Of a stretch of DNA of 42,760 nt, positions 31,930-42,760 are shown piece by piece (the stretch's first letter is position 1; the number at the start of each line of letters is the position of its first letter). The notes beneath the pieces were generated by a model that saw only the letters and a list, made by a program, of their open reading frames with translations, did not search any database and was not told the DNA's origin. Both the position numbers and the translations under genes were made by a program. The stretch comes from a virus: IMG/VR virus record IMGVR_UViG_3300009788_000166, positions 1 through 42,760 of that record; one strand, written 5' to 3'.

Positions 31930-32350
31930 AGTCAAGGCTTTTATGGAAAAACACGGACATGACATCAATGTGACACTACCGTGTTCCTATCAGCACCATT
32001 TGCATACGACCTCTAAGGTATTAAAAGATTGGTCAAGGCTAATGGAAAAGCAACTTCCTAATAATGACCCAAGAATAATGTGTGCACATTTAATGTGTGA
32101 GGAACTTGGGGAAGTCCTTGAAGCGATGTGGAAAGGTGATGAGCTGTTGTTACTGGATGGACTTGCCGATTTACTTTATGTCGTATTTGGAGTAGCGGTT
32201 ACGTTTGGGTTGCCTATTGAAAAGGCATTCGATGAGATACACCAATCAAATATGACAAAAGAAGTTCATCCCAATGACCCCCGTTGTCGTATCAAAGGTG
32301 ACAGTTATATAGCACCGAATTTGCAAAGGATTCTCGATGAAAACTATTGA
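31919..32350 (+). CDS. MazG-like nucleotide pyrophosphohydrolase
   Basis: A 143-residue protein. LMCEELGEVLEAMWKGDELL and LDGLADLLYVVFGVAVTFGL match the E-E-x-x-E ... D-x-x-D motifs of PRA-PH/MazG-like phage proteins, which hydrolyse dNTPs. ATG 31919 has GGAG about nine bases upstream and replaces a GTG three bases before. Together with thymidylate synthase and dCMP deaminase it would tune dNTP pools. Confidence 0.75.
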   Translation: MNSKVKAFMEKHGHDINVTLPCSYQHHLHTTSKVLKDWSRLMEKQLPNNDPRIMCAHLMCEELGEVLEAMWKGDELLLLDGLADLLYVVFGVAVTFGLPIEKAFDEIHQSNMTKEVHPNDPRCRIKGDSYIAPNLQRILDENY

Positions 32351-33284
32351 CGGGTTATGGAAACAAGCAATTGACGATACAATACAATATGGAAATTTTG
32401 TTGATAGTCGTCTTGGATGGAGTCGTGAATTGATCGGTTGGCAAGGGAAGCTCGAGGCCTTTGACCATACCTTTCTAACAAATAAACGGCGGAAACTTTC
32501 AATTGAATATGCTCATGCCGAAGTTTTGTGGCACCTGGCTGGCACTAATACTTTGGAAATGATTCTGGCCTATGCTCCTCGTTATGATCGGTGGGCGAAT
32601 CATGGTGAAGTGTGGGGAGCGCATGGTTGGCGACGAACTAATGACCCCGGTTTACTCCGCGAAACTAATGGAGACGGGTATATAGGCTGTCAATTAACTC
32701 GCTTGATTGGCTTGCTCCGTGAAAATAAGAATGATCGCCGTTGTGTTATGACGATATGGAATGGCGGTGACATTGTTCATGCTCTTCATAACTCTAAAAA
32801 GGATATCCCGTGTATGCTTACGTGGCAATTCCTTTTGCGAGATGGTAAGTTGGATATGATTTGCACTATGAGAAGTAATGACATTTGGCTTGGTATGCCC
32901 TATGATATCTATACAAATACCTGCTTCATGCGTGTCATTGCCTGGTCACTCGGTGCAAAGATGGGAAGGTATATCCATCAAGTCGGCAGTTTGCATCTGT
33001 ATGAAAAATACTATGACCGAGCTGAAGAAGCATACCAAGCAAAAATTGATCACACCCCTCATGGATATAATGAACTTGAACGTGTTCAATTTTTCAAAGA
33101 GGCAACTCGAGCTGTGAGGCAGGAAAGGGTAATACGAATAGGTCAACAACGTATCCAGCTCGTAGAAATAAATCCAGTATTTTGGGATTGTGTTCAGATA
33201 TGTGCATCGAAATGGATTGGGATAAATCTCAGTGACATTCAGTCGACTCTTTTGAGGAAATGTTATGTTGATAGTAGAAGGTAG
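32337..33284 (+). CDS. Thymidylate synthase family protein, possibly dCMP-specific
   Basis: A 315-residue ThyA-family protein. The catalytic cysteine is Cys159 in IPCMLTWQF. The phosphate-binding segment is RSNDIWLGMP (R179, S180, D182). H220 and Y222 in S-L-H-L-Y match the ThyA T-H-L-Y signature. The usual nucleobase-reading asparagine (E. coli N177, in P-F-N-I) is Asp190 here, in P-Y-D-I. In T4 dCMP hydroxymethylase and in ThyA Asn-to-Asp mutants this change selects dCMP over dUMP. So the enzyme may make 5-hydroxymethyl- or 5-methyl-dCMP rather than dTMP. It starts inside the MazG end and overlaps the kinase gene by 20 bases. Confidence 0.88.
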   Translation: MKTIDGLWKQAIDDTIQYGNFVDSRLGWSRELIGWQGKLEAFDHTFLTNKRRKLSIEYAHAEVLWHLAGTNTLEMILAYAPRYDRWANHGEVWGAHGWRRTNDPGLLRETNGDGYIGCQLTRLIGLLRENKNDRRCVMTIWNGGDIVHALHNSKKDIPCMLTWQFLLRDGKLDMICTMRSNDIWLGMPYDIYTNTCFMRVIAWSLGAKMGRYIHQVGSLHLYEKYYDRAEEAYQAKIDHTPHGYNELERVQFFKEATRAVRQERVIRIGQQRIQLVEINPVFWDCVQICASKWIGINLSDIQSTLLRKCYVDSRR

Positions 33285-33801
33285 TGATTGTGTTGGAAAG
33301 ACAACGTTTTGTCACAAACTTATTAAAGCCCTTGAAGATCATGGGCCGTGGATTTATCAGCATTTAGATCCACCACCGCCACTGTGGCACTTTCCAAAAA
33401 GTTACTTTCCAATAATGTCACAGCACATCATACAAGACCGATTCCACATGTCTGAAATTGTGTATAGTGAAGCACGAGAAATGGAACCTAGATTATCTTG
33501 GAATGACTACCGAACAATTGATGCAATCCATCGGTGTCTCGGCGGTGTCACTGTAGTATTGACTGCTAATGCTCAAGTAATTGAACATAATTATTCGAGC
33601 AATGAATTGTATTCCCTTGAAACAGCTCTCAAAGTAGATAGGTTATTTCGACATCATATTGATAACCCCCAAGTTGATTGTGATTTTCACTGGAATAGCC
33701 ATGGTTTTTATCCCGATCAAGAATTCCTTGAACGTGTTTTGATGTTATACCTCGAACGACAGGAGATTTGTTATGCAACGACGGTTGGAAAAACTATCTA
33801 A
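33265..33801 (+). CDS. Deoxynucleoside monophosphate kinase (thymidylate-kinase-like)
   Basis: A 178-residue P-loop kinase with LIVEGSDCVGKTTF at residues 2-15, the G-x-D-x-x-G-K-[ST] form of thymidylate and dNMP kinases. The segment IIQDRFHMSEIVYS resembles the D-R-[FY]-x-x-S DR(F/Y) motif of TMP kinases. It would phosphorylate the nucleotide made by the upstream synthase, including a modified one. Overlap with the upstream gene implies coupled translation. Confidence 0.8.
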   Translation: MLIVEGSDCVGKTTFCHKLIKALEDHGPWIYQHLDPPPPLWHFPKSYFPIMSQHIIQDRFHMSEIVYSEAREMEPRLSWNDYRTIDAIHRCLGGVTVVLTANAQVIEHNYSSNELYSLETALKVDRLFRHHIDNPQVDCDFHWNSHGFYPDQEFLERVLMLYLERQEICYATTVGKTI

Positions 33802-37485: not shown

Positions 37486-37525
37486 AGTAATGAACGCAAC
37501 AAAAACCATATTGAAAGGAAACGAA

Positions 37526-37702
37526 ATGATCGTCAATCACTGCCTTTTGAACCGCCTTTATGATACTCTCACTCAAACCTCTGGATGGAAACCCTTGCGA
37601 ATTCTTGAAATGATCGATGATCTTGAATTGCTTGAAGCGTTTCCATGTGATGAGTTTGCGGCTGATGTCATTGAAGCCTTGGACTTTTATAGGATTTGGT
37701 AA
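37526..37702 (+). CDS. Small acidic protein (58 aa)
   Basis: A 58-residue product, start chosen at ATG 37526 with AAGGAA six bases upstream; an ATG 36 bases earlier is in frame but has no such site. It is helical and acidic (ILEMIDDLELLEAFPCDEFAADVIEALDF). Its TAA stop is the first base-pairing strand of the downstream ribozyme. No known function. Confidence 0.65.
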   Translation: MIVNHCLLNRLYDTLTQTSGWKPLRILEMIDDLELLEAFPCDEFAADVIEALDFYRIW

Positions 37703-37764
37703 GTCGAAACGCACTGAGGTGCGTCGTGGAAGTTTGAGCGACTTCCACCTGATGAGACTGCTCA
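37702..37764 (+). ncRNA. Type II hammerhead ribozyme, copy 1
   Basis: All hammerhead core elements are present. Stem II: AGTC (37702-37705) pairs with GACT (37756-37759). GAA at 37706-37708. Stem III: C37710-C37714 pairs with G37719-G37723 around a TGAG loop, plus the A37709-T37724 pair. Cleavage triplet GTC ends at C37725. Stem I: 37726-37733 pairs with 37741-37748, an 8-bp stem with loop TTGAGCG. Core CTGATGA is at 37749-37755. The first pair of stem II is G-C as required (10.1-11.1). Stem II is the open one, so it is type II. Loop bases TGAGC (37735-37739) match GCTCA (37760-37764), a possible pseudoknot. Predicted cut: after C37725. Confidence 0.92.
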
Positions 37765-37778
37765 CTATGGAGAAGACT

Positions 37779-38012
37779 ATGGAAAAGTATGAAATCACAA
37801 TGCGAATAACGGTAAGTGCGAATGGAGAAGCGGAAGCTTCGAGAATCGCGCACATGGCAATTCCAGAAGTCAATATCGAAATGGTTGATGAGTATACTAC
37901 CAATTGCAAAATGGTTGATCGGTATTGTGATCAATGCCAAAAACCCGGTGGAAGTTTCCAAGTTGATGATTCATGGCTCTGTCATGAGTGCTGGAAGGCG
38001 GTGGCGAAATGA
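37779..38012 (+). CDS. Small zinc-ribbon protein (77 aa)
   Basis: A 77-residue product. The C-half has C-D-Q-C and, 15 residues on, C-H-E-C, a zinc ribbon; the N-half (EITMRITVSANGEAEASRIA) is mixed alpha/beta, a ferredoxin-like arrangement. The start at 37779 has GGAG six bases upstream within the ribozyme's conserved tail. The next gene is a paralogue with the same layout. The leader is therefore a self-cleaving one. Confidence 0.7.
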   Translation: MEKYEITMRITVSANGEAEASRIAHMAIPEVNIEMVDEYTTNCKMVDRYCDQCQKPGGSFQVDDSWLCHECWKAVAK

Positions 38013-38279: not shown

Positions 38280-38636
38280 ATGGCGAAGAACAAGAAAAAG
38301 AAGACGACTGAGAAGAGAGTTGTGAAGCCGCGAGCAGAATACCCGGTTGCTAAGGATGCGGCATTGGAAGCAACACCGGACGATTTCAATTTCAAGAAAT
38401 TCCCTTTGCTGAAGCGGGAAGTTTTCAAGGATGACGGTTTTTGGTATCTTCACCGTGCAGAGGGTGGGGAATTCAAAGCCGCCGAGTTGAGAGCAAAGGC
38501 GGAAGAGTTCCTGAAATTCGGGAATGTGAAAGACCGACTGAAGGCTTCCAAATTGCGCAAGATGCAAGACAAGATGGAAGAGCTCAAAGCGGAATTGGAA
38601 GCGGCTGGTGTGGATGTGGAAGACCTTCTCAGCTAA
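38280..38636 (+). CDS. Lysine-rich charged early protein
   Basis: A 118-residue product. The N-terminus is strongly basic (MAKNKKKKTTEKRVVKPRAE) and the C-terminus is a coiled coil (LRKMQDKMEELKAELEAAGV). AGGAG is nine bases upstream of the ATG. A basic, coiled-coil protein could bind DNA or host RNA polymerase. The TAA stop lies directly before ribozyme copy 2. Hairpin GACAC-TAT-GTGTC at 38247-38259 precedes the gene. Confidence 0.7.
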   Translation: MAKNKKKKTTEKRVVKPRAEYPVAKDAALEATPDDFNFKKFPLLKREVFKDDGFWYLHRAEGGEFKAAELRAKAEEFLKFGNVKDRLKASKLRKMQDKMEELKAELEAAGVDVEDLLS

Positions 38637-38700
38637 GTCGAAAGCGCACTTCGGTGCGCTCGTTGGAATTTGAGCGATTCCAGCCTGATGAGACTGCTCA
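38636..38700 (+). ncRNA. Type II hammerhead ribozyme, copy 2
   Basis: The same architecture as copy 1 with compensating changes. Stem II: AGTC (38636-38639) with GACT (38692-38695). GAA at 38640-38642. Stem III: six pairs, GCGCAC (38644-38649) with GTGCGC (38654-38659) around a TTCG tetraloop, and the A38643-T38660 pair. The cleavage triplet is CTC ending at C38661. Stem I: 38662-38669 with 38677-38684, again 8 bp (one G-U) and the identical TTGAGCG loop. CTGATGA is at 38685-38691. The loop bases TGAGC (38671-38675) match GCTCA (38696-38700). The conserved downstream SD and gene start lie 15 bases on. Confidence 0.92.
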
Positions 38701-38714
38701 CTATGGAGATTAAC

Positions 38715-38900
38715 ATGACGGTTATTATTCACACACGCTTCAAAAACAAAATGTGGATATGGGAAATTGAAACTGCATTTGGTTCACTTCATTCAGCTAG
38801 TGATTTTGAAACAGAGGTTGTTGCATTGAGCAATGCCAATCGGATGTGGACAGAGTTAAGGCAAGCAGCGACTTTGATATATTTAGGGAGTGAAAACTGA
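38715..38900 (+). CDS. Small hypothetical protein downstream of ribozyme 2
   Basis: A 61-residue product, ATG with GGAG six bases upstream inside the ribozyme tail. It starts TVIIHTRFKNKMWIWEIETA, a beta pair, followed by a helix (VALSNANRMWTELRQAATL). No family is recognised. It overlaps the next gene by one base. Confidence 0.65.
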   Translation: MTVIIHTRFKNKMWIWEIETAFGSLHSASDFETEVVALSNANRMWTELRQAATLIYLGSEN

Positions 38901-39970: not shown

Positions 39971-40274
39971 AAAGATTTGTAAATTGTGGCGAGCTGATGG
40001 CGCTATGATTTGCACGACGGATAGTGTTGGCTGGCCTGATCGATGGGTTGGCTGGCATGGTTGGGAATGGTGGTTGGAATTCAAAGAAAATTCAGAAGTT
40101 AAACCTCATCAAAAGCATGTCTTGGATAAACTTCGAGCGATTGACATTGGCGCTTGGGTAATTCGCATTCGTCCGAATTGGTGTGATATTGAATATCCCG
40201 ATGGTCGTGTCGTAAGAGAAAAAGTCCTTTGGGACGATGTTTTGCATACCCTCCAGGTGCTGTCTTGTACGTAG
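39951..40274 (+). CDS. VRR-NUC-type endonuclease
   Basis: A 107-residue PD-(D/E)xK nuclease candidate. G-W-P-D30-R, then E-W-W-L-E43-F-K45, then K-P-H-Q54 and a final I-G-A-W-V-I-R-I-R strand match the VRR-NUC fold (G-x-P-D ... [DE]-x-K ... Q). These small phage nucleases act on Holliday junctions or flap structures. An in-frame TTG immediately precedes the ATG. The product is Trp-rich. Position after a coiled-coil gene, not next to the polymerase, is unusual. Confidence 0.75.
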   Translation: MECKLTRKICKLWRADGAMICTTDSVGWPDRWVGWHGWEWWLEFKENSEVKPHQKHVLDKLRAIDIGAWVIRIRPNWCDIEYPDGRVVREKVLWDDVLHTLQVLSCT

Positions 40275-40366
40275 TTGGAGATGGCAACATTATCCACTTC
40301 TGGACGGGGTGGATTGAAACGGACCGAAAGGGTGAAATGGTAATGTGGAGGGCTGCCTCAAAGTGA
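40265..40366 (+). CDS. Low-confidence small ORF (33 aa)
   Basis: A TTG-started frame of 33 codons, overlapping the nuclease end by ten bases, with sequence YVVGDGNIIHFWTGWIETDR. It is GTGA-coupled to the next frame. A near-repeat (GGAGATGGCAAC) appears about 130 bases downstream. The TTG start and lack of a Shine-Dalgarno site keep confidence low. Confidence 0.3.
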   Translation: MYVVGDGNIIHFWTGWIETDRKGEMVMWRAASK

Positions 40367-40644
40367 GACAACGGCCAGGTTCGAAACTCTTTTGGCTTTG
40401 GAGATGGCAACGTTTTCCGTGGACTGGAATGAGAAAATGCTATAGCCCTAAGGACCAGATTGAAAGCCCAAGGAATTCGCACCCCCTTCTTCTATATGCT
40501 ATTATGCGTCAAAAAGCTACTTTTTATTGGACTATCCTTGGGTTGGGAATTGTTCGGTCCTATAGGGCTGAATTTGGCCAAAGGGCCTGGTTTGGGAAAT
40601 GTTGCCATCTGCAAAAAGGGCTTTATGTTTCGGTCAAGAAATAG
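40363..40644 (+). CDS. Low-confidence Trp-rich ORF
   Basis: A 93-codon frame from GTG 40363, GTGA-coupled to the preceding small frame. The product is rich in W, R and F (SKLFWLWRWQRFPWTGMRKC), which could indicate an artefact. In another frame the same DNA encodes the upstream extension of a zinc-ribbon protein (from TTG 40460), so only one is probably real. Confidence 0.25.
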   Translation: MRQRPGSKLFWLWRWQRFPWTGMRKCYSPKDQIESPRNSHPLLLYAIMRQKATFYWTILGLGIVRSYRAEFGQRAWFGKCCHLQKGLYVSVKK

Positions 40645-40797: not shown

Positions 40798-41196
40798 ATG
40801 CCATCAATGGATGAATTAGATCAACAATTTCGTTATGAGAATCAGTTACCATGTCGTCAATCAAAGGTCAAAGAGGATAAATGTGTGAAAAAAAGGAAAA
40901 CAAATGCGGAGTTAATAAAGGAGTTACGTTGTCAAGTGGATATAAAGCATCGTATTCAGGTCGATGCGTTAGGATTGTATTTAGAGGGTGTTAAAGTACC
41001 ACTTAGGAGAGATGCGAGAAAAGTGTTAATTGATATTGCATGCGTTGATTGGAAAACAGTTTCTCAAATCAGTGATGAAACGGGTTTGACACTGATTCAA
41101 ATTAGGAATGTTCTTTATAATCCTCTGTTTAGGGGAGTATATATGATTAGGAAATTGATGGGCAATCGGGTTGAATTTATGAAAGGGAAGAAATGA
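40798..41196 (+). CDS. Putative winged-helix-like regulator
   Basis: A 132-residue protein. The first half is basic and polar with scattered cysteines. The second half has DWKTVSQISDETGLTLIQIR, reading as helix-turn-helix (Q-I-S-x-x-T-G-L-[TS]-x-x-Q-[IV]), followed by a wing-like NVLYNPLFRGVYMIRKLMGN. It may bind DNA, possibly the nearby repeat region. It is coupled by ATGA to the ATPase gene. Confidence 0.55.
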   Translation: MPSMDELDQQFRYENQLPCRQSKVKEDKCVKKRKTNAELIKELRCQVDIKHRIQVDALGLYLEGVKVPLRRDARKVLIDIACVDWKTVSQISDETGLTLIQIRNVLYNPLFRGVYMIRKLMGNRVEFMKGKK

Positions 41197-42224
41197 TCGC
41201 ATCACATGTTTTAACGTTGACTCCAGATTATGTCAGCACCTGGTCACTTTGGGAAGCGGTTCGTGAGCTCTTGCAAAACGCAATTGATCAGCGGACATTG
41301 AACAAGTCGCGTATTATCTTCGAGTATGAAGATGAGAAGTTGACCATCGGGTCGACGAACGCATATCTCAGCCCTAAGACGTTGTTGTTAGGAATGACCG
41401 ATAAACGCAATGACGCAACCATCGGTCAATTTGGTGAAGGATACAAGTTGGCAATGCTGGTATTGACTCGCATGTCATACGACGTCAAACTTCGCAACGG
41501 GTCGGAATTATGGGTTCCGGCGTTTGAATATAATGAGGAGTATGAGTCACATGTGCTTGTGATAAATAGGTATGAGGCGGAAGATTGTGGTGGCGTATTT
41601 TTCGACATTACGAATGTCAGTGAAGATGGCTTTGGTGACATTGCAGAAAAGTATTTGCCTGATGTTCCTCTTGACGTTATCTTGGACGAAGATCACTTAC
41701 GCAAAAAGGTCTTTCTCGGTGGGCTGTTTGTTTGTGAGATTGATGATCTTGAATACGGTTATAACTTCGCACCTCGCCGCCTGGTCCTAGACCGTGACAG
41801 AGGTATGGCATCTTCGTTCGATGTTTCTTGTGCTACATCCGCAATATGGTCTCGTGTCGATGATGATAAGAGACTTTATGCGAATCTGTCCGCTGGAGGG
41901 TTAGACACCTCCTTTGTCAATGTATCGCGAGTGTCCACAAATCGCTATGTCGTTGAGCAATACTTAAAGGAAACGCCCAATGCCATTCCAGTGTCATCTG
42001 ATGATGAAGCAAAACGCCTAATTGCTGCTGGCAATACCGTACGTCGAGTGCCAACAGCGTTATGTAACTTGCTCCGAAGAATGCACAAGTTCGTATTCAA
42101 TCGTTCAGGTACTCCCTGCGAGAGGCTGGAGCGATTCCAGCAGCAGTTTGGCCGTTTCATGAATGATGAAGCGAAGACGGAATGGAAATCGATCATGGAG
42201 GCCTCAAAGGAGTGGAATGGTTGA
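41193..42224 (+). CDS. GHKL (Hsp90-like) ATPase
   Basis: A 343-residue protein with a Bergerat fold signature: W-E-A-V-R-E-L-L-Q-N29-A as the N-box, and the G-Q-F-G-E-G-Y-K-L-A glycine-rich lid at about 78-87, preceded by a G-M-T-D segment. It lacks kinase, dimerisation-histidine and CATH domains, so it is neither a histidine kinase nor a topoisomerase. The C-terminal 200 residues are unrecognised, with a long basic/acidic helical tail. A role in DNA handling or host takeover is possible. The stop is followed directly by the repeat region. Confidence 0.75.
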   Translation: MIASHVLTLTPDYVSTWSLWEAVRELLQNAIDQRTLNKSRIIFEYEDEKLTIGSTNAYLSPKTLLLGMTDKRNDATIGQFGEGYKLAMLVLTRMSYDVKLRNGSELWVPAFEYNEEYESHVLVINRYEAEDCGGVFFDITNVSEDGFGDIAEKYLPDVPLDVILDEDHLRKKVFLGGLFVCEIDDLEYGYNFAPRRLVLDRDRGMASSFDVSCATSAIWSRVDDDKRLYANLSAGGLDTSFVNVSRVSTNRYVVEQYLKETPNAIPVSSDDEAKRLIAAGNTVRRVPTALCNLLRRMHKFVFNRSGTPCERLERFQQQFGRFMNDEAKTEWKSIMEASKEWNG

Positions 42225-42237
42225 ATGTGCGATAAAA

Positions 42238-42430
42238 GGGGCGACTGCCCAAACGGATTGTGAAGATCTACTAATCGAAAATGGAGATAAAAGGGGTGAC
42301 TGCCCAAACGAACCTAGAAAGCGACCCACAGGGATATCTCAGGGAAACTCGCGACCCACAATGCCCAGTTAGGGTTGTTAGGGGGTGACTGCCCAGACGG
42401 ATTGTGAAGATCTACTAATCAAATTTATTC
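42238..42430. repeat. Degenerate iteron-like repeats at the right end
   Basis: Three copies of a GGGG[CT]GACTGCCC core begin at 42238, 42293 and 42381. Copies 1 and 3 continue with ACGGATTGTGAAGATCTAC and CTAATC. GCGACCCACA occurs at 42321 and 42351. The set is related to 161-262 at the left end. The cores are themselves short inverted repeats (GGGC-GACT-GCCC). Such an array near a helix-turn-helix gene may bind an initiator or terminase. Confidence 0.85.
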
Positions 42431-42467
42431 CATATATGGGAGCAACCGTGGGCAGTCGCTCCCTAAC
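42376..42467. repeat. 18-bp inverted repeat with 55-base spacer
   Basis: GTTAGGGGGTGACTGCCC (about 42377-42394) is matched on the other strand by GGGCAGTCGCTCCCTAAC (about 42450-42467), 16 of 18 positions pairing. The spacer contains the ATTGTGAAGATCTAC element. It could fold as a large hairpin in single-stranded DNA or RNA, or be a two-site protein target. Confidence 0.75.
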
Positions 42468-42470
42468 AAA

Positions 42471-42760
42471 TAAGATAGTATTGAAGACCTCATAATTCCG
42501 ATAAGGGAGATGGTATTGAAGACCTCATAATTCAGATAAGGGGGATGGTATTGAAGACCTCATAATCCCGATAAGGGGGATGGTATTGAAGACCTCATAA
42601 TCCCGGTAAGGGAGATGGTATTGAAGATCCCATAATTCCGATAAGGGGGATGGTATTGAAGACCTCATAATCCCGATAAGGGGGATGGTATTGAAGACCT
42701 CATAATCCCGATAAGGGAGATGGTATTGAAGATCCCATAATTCCGATAAGGGAGATGGTA
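42471..42760. repeat. 35-bp tandem repeat array, right end
   Basis: A partial unit at 42471-42497 leads into seven full 35-bp units starting at 42498, 42533, 42568, 42603, 42638, 42673 and 42708, and an 18-base partial at 42743. The A-A-B order repeats, giving a 105-bp period. Bases 42638-42760 equal 1-123, so the two arrays are one array if the molecule is circular. The unit number may be collapsed in assembly. Confidence 0.95.

Follow-up and report, generated by a model that had tools for sequence, protein, structure and literature searches.

Positions 37702-37764 of the window, the whole 42,760-nt stretch analysed here, are well supported by sequence and predicted folding as a type II hammerhead ribozyme, and the RNA is predicted to self-cleave after C37725. 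Another copy, diverged from the first, is found 936 bp downstream, and its presence bears out the label "copy 1" used in an earlier note made from the sequence alone. Copy 1 is a member of an already known ribozyme class; type II hammerheads, their pseudoknot, and their clusters in prophages have all been described (Perreault et al., 2011). The fit of such ribozymes between the stop codon of one gene and the start of the next is apparently less documented than the class itself. Judging from the sequence and by analogy with published relatives, we think it likely that this cis-cleaving hammerhead is a processing site between the cistrons of a polycistronic phage transcript.

We checked the elements of copy 1 base by base (Table 1). 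The complete core and all three stems are present where the earlier note had placed them, as are the GTC triplet and the G-C first pair of stem II that it had reported, and the placement of the element between two tailed-phage genes holds as well. The invariant core of the class (GAA, A15.1-U16.1, an NUH triplet, and CUGANGA) is intact. Three helices are seen in the free fold and in the covariation of relatives, with stems I and III closed by loops and stem II open. The open stem II, from which type II topology had been claimed, was upheld by both the free fold and the scan for core plus stems. The unconstrained minimum-energy fold consists of exactly the three hammerhead stems in both copies, and its energy is only modestly better than that of shuffled sequences (z of -1.6 and -1.7 for the two copies). 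A ninth pair, G.U, is possible in stem I of copy 1. The contact between the stem I loop and the tail, commonly a pseudoknot in this class, is found here as a 5-bp pseudoknot in which UGAGC at 37735-37739 in the stem I loop pairs with GCUCA in the 3' tail. It was not mentioned in the earlier note, although the end coordinate given there takes it in.

Table 1. Positions in the window of the two predicted ribozyme copies, the parts of copy 1, and the flanking reading frames.
Feature	Position	Strand	Basis
Copy 1, predicted type II hammerhead ribozyme including pseudoknot strand	37702..37764	+	pattern scan, fold, Rfam, model built here
Copy 1 stem II 5' strand AGUC (AGTC), pairs with 37756-37759	37702..37705	+	sequence, fold
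Copy 1 core GAA	37706..37708	+	
Copy 1 stem III hairpin, 6 bp including A15.1-U16.1 (A37709-T37724), loop UGAG	37709..37724	+	sequence, fold
Copy 1 cleavage triplet GUC; predicted cut between C37725 and G37726	37723..37725	+	sequence; cleavage inferred
Copy 1 stem I hairpin, 8 bp (37726-37733 with 37741-37748), loop UUGAGCG	37726..37748	+	sequence, fold
Copy 1 core CUGAUGA	37749..37755	+	
Copy 1 stem II 3' strand GACU (37756-37759), then pseudoknot strand GCUCA (37760-37764)	37756..37764	+	
Copy 2, predicted type II hammerhead ribozyme	38636..38700	+	scan, fold, model built here; no Rfam match at E<=1
ORF upstream of copy 1, 70 aa from first ATG, no assigned function; stop TAA 37700-37702	37490..37702	+	
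GGAG Shine-Dalgarno-like box of gene downstream of copy 1	37769..37772	+	
Small ORF downstream of copy 1, CxxC...CxxC motif, no assigned function	37779..38012	+	
ORF upstream of copy 2, 118 aa, no assigned function; stop TAA 38634-38636 overlaps stem II	38280..38636	+	
GGAG Shine-Dalgarno-like box after copy 2	38705..38708	+	
ORF downstream of copy 2, 61 aa, no assigned function	38715..38900	+	

The 3' part of copy 2 is 86% identical to that of copy 1 over 50 nt. Its predicted cut falls after C38661, and its pseudoknot pairs 38671-38675 with 38696-38700, the two words UGAGC and GCUCA being identical in both copies. All eight pairs of stem I are preserved between the copies: from copy 1 to copy 2, pairs 3, 5, and 7 have both bases replaced (G-C to U-A, A-U to G-C, and G-C to A-U) and pair 2 changes from U-A to U.G. 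Stem III has 7 bp, one pair more than in copy 1. The cleavage triplet is CUC with G15.2-C16.2, a combination found in only 3 of 190 ribozymes among the matches listed, and cleavage of this copy may be slower.

The earlier note held a chance origin to be very unlikely, and the controls rejected it. Scanning the window for core plus stems returned only the two copies, and the same scan of 100 windows randomised with nearest-neighbour composition preserved found no element whose stems reached this length. We also scanned IMG/VR with the core pattern, which gave at least 120 stretches; counts for relatives here refer to the matches listed. Both stems form in 137 of the 155 viral matches listed to the bare core pattern. 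With the interiors shuffled, both form in only 5 of 3100, and the share is also lower among pattern matches from bacterial and archaeal genomes (30 of 121).

A search with the Rfam Hammerhead_II model had been proposed as a check. For copy 1 this gave a clear match, with RF02276 as the best family (32.4 bits, E of 2e-5 when 121 nt were searched alone), but the score is below the curated gathering score of 37, which is a detection threshold and not a class-defining feature. Copy 1 was absent from the report of the whole-window Rfam search, and copy 2 had no match. A model built here from 46 sequences, with both copies in its training set, gave 64.5 bits for copy 1 and 51.8 for copy 2, the next match in the window scoring 9.1. 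An intrinsic terminator, that is, a GC-rich hairpin with a U tract, was rejected for both copies; there is no U tract and no terminator call at either. Reading frames are open through the elements, but we rejected coding sequence as their explanation because the differences between the copies keep base pairing, which coding constraint does not explain.

The three stems covary across 46 and 148 distinct related sequences (alignments A1 and A2, respectively) among the matches listed. In A1, 17 of 18 pairs have two-sided changes, and the covariation score is 0.690 as compared with 0.163 for shuffled and at most 0.091 for slid alignments. The corresponding score for A2 (150 matches), which was fitted to the model and leans towards it, is 0.814 versus 0.165 when shuffled. 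The four central positions of the pseudoknot are paired in 110-117 of 128 relatives, compared with 74-93 when partners are shuffled, and 5 bp or more form without a break in 114 of 190 ribozymes versus about 15 with swapped tails. Stems that diverge with pairing kept, around a nearly invariant core, indicate from the sequences that the folded RNA is under selection.

Both copies fit closely between their neighbouring genes. Each upstream TAA stop shares its last A with the stem II strand, which begins at that base, and a GGAG box follows the pseudoknot strand, with the likely ATG beginning 15 nt after that strand. There is an extra in-frame ATG (CTATGGAG) at 37767 and 38703, 12 nt ahead of the likely start and overlapping the Shine-Dalgarno box, and judged by position the downstream proteins could begin there, four codons earlier. 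In relatives, whose ORFs were called mechanically, 110 of 166 cases among the matches listed have the upstream stop ending 3-6 nt ahead of GAA. The exact peak at -3 is partly a selection effect, because the search pattern that supplied most loci requires GTC/GAC in stem II and favours an overlapping TAG. No upstream stop (0 of 166 among the matches listed) ends at -2 to +10. The next ATG lies a median of 27 nt after CUGANGA. Again among the matches listed, 141 of 174 cases have a Shine-Dalgarno-like box ahead of this ATG, versus 24 in shuffled controls. All copies are on one strand in each of the 40 multi-ribozyme loci listed. The flanking genes of the window copies are small and without known relatives; for the 118-aa protein before copy 2, no relative was detected in IMG/VR. 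Paralogy of the two small CxxC ORFs was not supported (E of 0.12). This phage has a ribozyme at only 2 of its many gene junctions, and processing would therefore not be general in it.

The largest set of copies was in another uncultured phage, IMGVR_UViG_3300033551_000003 (G007; L009, L016, L259), where a search of the whole record gave 32 matches as compared with 2 here. They span 18.6 kb (42611-61252, L259) on one strand, between successive genes, and are of the same type and stop-to-start position as the window copies. Most are followed by a TTAGGAG-type box and by an ATG situated 7-28 nt beyond the matched sequence. No ORF begins close enough to the copy at 56885, the calls of the upstream stop are in part ambiguous, and several copies have altered core letters (e.g. 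CCGATGA and CTGAAGA). Some share with the window the 16-mer CTGATGAGACTGCTCA, which comprises the core and the same pseudoknot word. The array region encodes transposase-like, ATPase, and HNH endonuclease proteins and many without assigned function, and no protein relationship to the window phage was detected in the 20-kb ribozyme region. Other records had 13 matches (G015), 10 (G025), or 6-8 (several), and most had one or two. Among 31 whole records searched, 12 had no model match, and 11 of these 12 had entered only through exact CTGATGAGACTGCTCA, so this 16-mer alone is often a chance match. Copies are more alike within a genome (identity of 0.582) than between genomes (0.496; at most 0.531 with shuffled labels), which suggests from sequence comparison that they have spread within genomes. 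In the 20-kb L259 stretch, Rfam at its threshold reported 7 copies versus about 30 with the model built here. The threshold thus misses most copies in such an array, and type II hammerheads are probably under-annotated in phages.

If copy 1 is a processing site between cistrons, the pseudoknot of loop I with the 3' tail would dock stem I on stem II in the folded RNA, which would then cleave itself after C37725. The upstream mRNA would have the stem III hairpin directly past its stop codon and a 2',3'-cyclic phosphate as its terminus, and the one downstream would begin with a 5'-OH, the stem I hairpin, on which the pseudoknot can persist, and the Shine-Dalgarno box. Both product ends would probably slow decay, giving the neighbouring genes independent mRNA lifetimes; such protection is expected from the chemistry of cyclic phosphate and 5'-OH ends and from general bacterial RNA decay.

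Several lines of evidence argue for processing: the complete core and stems, the covariation, the compensatory changes between the two copies, the precise placement from stop to Shine-Dalgarno box, the one-strand multi-copy loci, and the 32 copies in one phage. Published relatives also cleave in vitro and in Escherichia coli and need the pseudoknot, which is required for fast cleavage at 0.5 mM Mg2+ (PMC3088659). In that study clustered prophage copies cleaved in vitro and a triple array cleaved in E. coli, and the authors already proposed that long phage transcripts are processed into mRNAs the length of an operon or a gene; a later paper called the role of bacterial and phage hammerheads an open question (PMC6155905). 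Counting against processing are the sub-threshold or absent Rfam scores, the rare CUC of copy 2, and the presence of a ribozyme at only two junctions.

The described type II hammerheads (RF02276; PMC3088659) share with the window copies the core, three stems, open stem II, and pseudoknot, as well as a phage context with several nearby copies flanking small genes. The window copies differ in that copy 1 scores under the Rfam threshold and copy 2 has CUC with G15.2-C16.2. Similarly, several of the Agrobacterium tumefaciens prophage hammerheads around ardA flank single genes, but the genes and host are different and those copies are active by experiment (in vitro and in E. coli), whereas activity here is predicted. 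The text of PMC3088659 uses neither "stop codon" nor "Shine-Dalgarno", and the exact stop-to-Shine-Dalgarno fit is undescribed there. In the literature searched, which covered few subscription journals, we found no description of this stop/start register or of arrays this large. The register and the 32-copy phage make the mRNA-processing hypothesis directly testable. A bolder idea, which we put forward tentatively, is that in some phages type II hammerheads are general gene punctuation, with about one per junction, the exact fit from stop to Shine-Dalgarno box, single-gene mRNAs with ribozyme-made protective ends, and possibly ribosome-coupled cleavage.

The ribozyme could be active but used mainly for regulation, with cleavage acting as a readout of whether the flanking genes are translated, or being controlled by that translation or by a ligand or ion. 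The stop touches stem II and in relatives the start follows at the short distance given above; by the established size of the ribosome footprint, ribosomes at both sites would reach ribozyme strands. However, this tight spacing could merely reflect compact phage genomes, and neither an alternative structure nor a domain for ligand binding was seen. Bcep176, a natural core variant from phage, prefers Mn2+ (PMC7151607), but the core is canonical in both window copies. We consider regulation unlikely to be the main use.

Another possibility is that these elements are mainly dispersed repeats that spread in phage genomes or supply the homology by which small gene cassettes are shuffled, with cleavage being incidental or serving the spread. 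Both the higher identity within genomes and the small flanking genes without known relatives fit this idea. It appears quite improbable as the main explanation, because the divergence of stems with pairing kept around a nearly invariant core points to selection on the folded RNA and the stop-to-Shine-Dalgarno placement is too exact for neutral spread. The Rfam results, below threshold for copy 1 and absent for copy 2, would also fit a decayed, inactive hammerhead retained only as an intergenic hairpin pair. Such a relic is very hard to reconcile with the catalytic residues and pseudoknot intact in both copies or with the lack of a U tract or terminator call there, and the Rfam threshold likewise passes over most of the L259 copies. 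Processing between cistrons is the reading we prefer.

The window is a 42.8-kb IMG/VR tailed-phage record with genes for terminase, portal, major head protein, tape measure, helicase, primase, and DNA polymerase. DNA similarity to GenBank phages gave nothing useful; by DNA polymerase the nearest relatives are L140 (IMG/VR, 40%) and MW202657 (37%). Synteny of the ribozymes was not supported, with no match in the stretches adjoining the DNA polymerase genes of these two relatives; MW202657 has one weak 26-bit match away from that neighbourhood. A 343-aa phrog_6077 protein at 41193-42224 has no hammerhead before its gene, whereas its 26% identical relative (L086:7431-8354, minus strand) starts directly after one (L086:8420-8484, minus strand).

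A 35-bp tandem repeat occupies both record ends (1-130 and 42473-42760) with an exact 123-bp terminal overlap inside it, so the overlap probably reflects either a circular assembly whose closure falls within the repeat or an end joined through the repeat. Adjoining the tandem array, 42231-42470 holds repeats of GGGGTGACTGCCCAAACG and a partial inverted copy. A candidate structured RNA at 40255-40630 (fold z of -2.65, no Rfam match) contains near-identical segments at 40275 and 40398 (GGAGATGGCAAC), each of which can pair with 40593-40615, and this suggests alternative folds. Thymidylate-synthase-like and kinase-like genes lie at 32337-33801; the MW202657 counterpart is annotated as a pyrimidine hydroxymethylase, and the window phage may therefore carry modified DNA bases.
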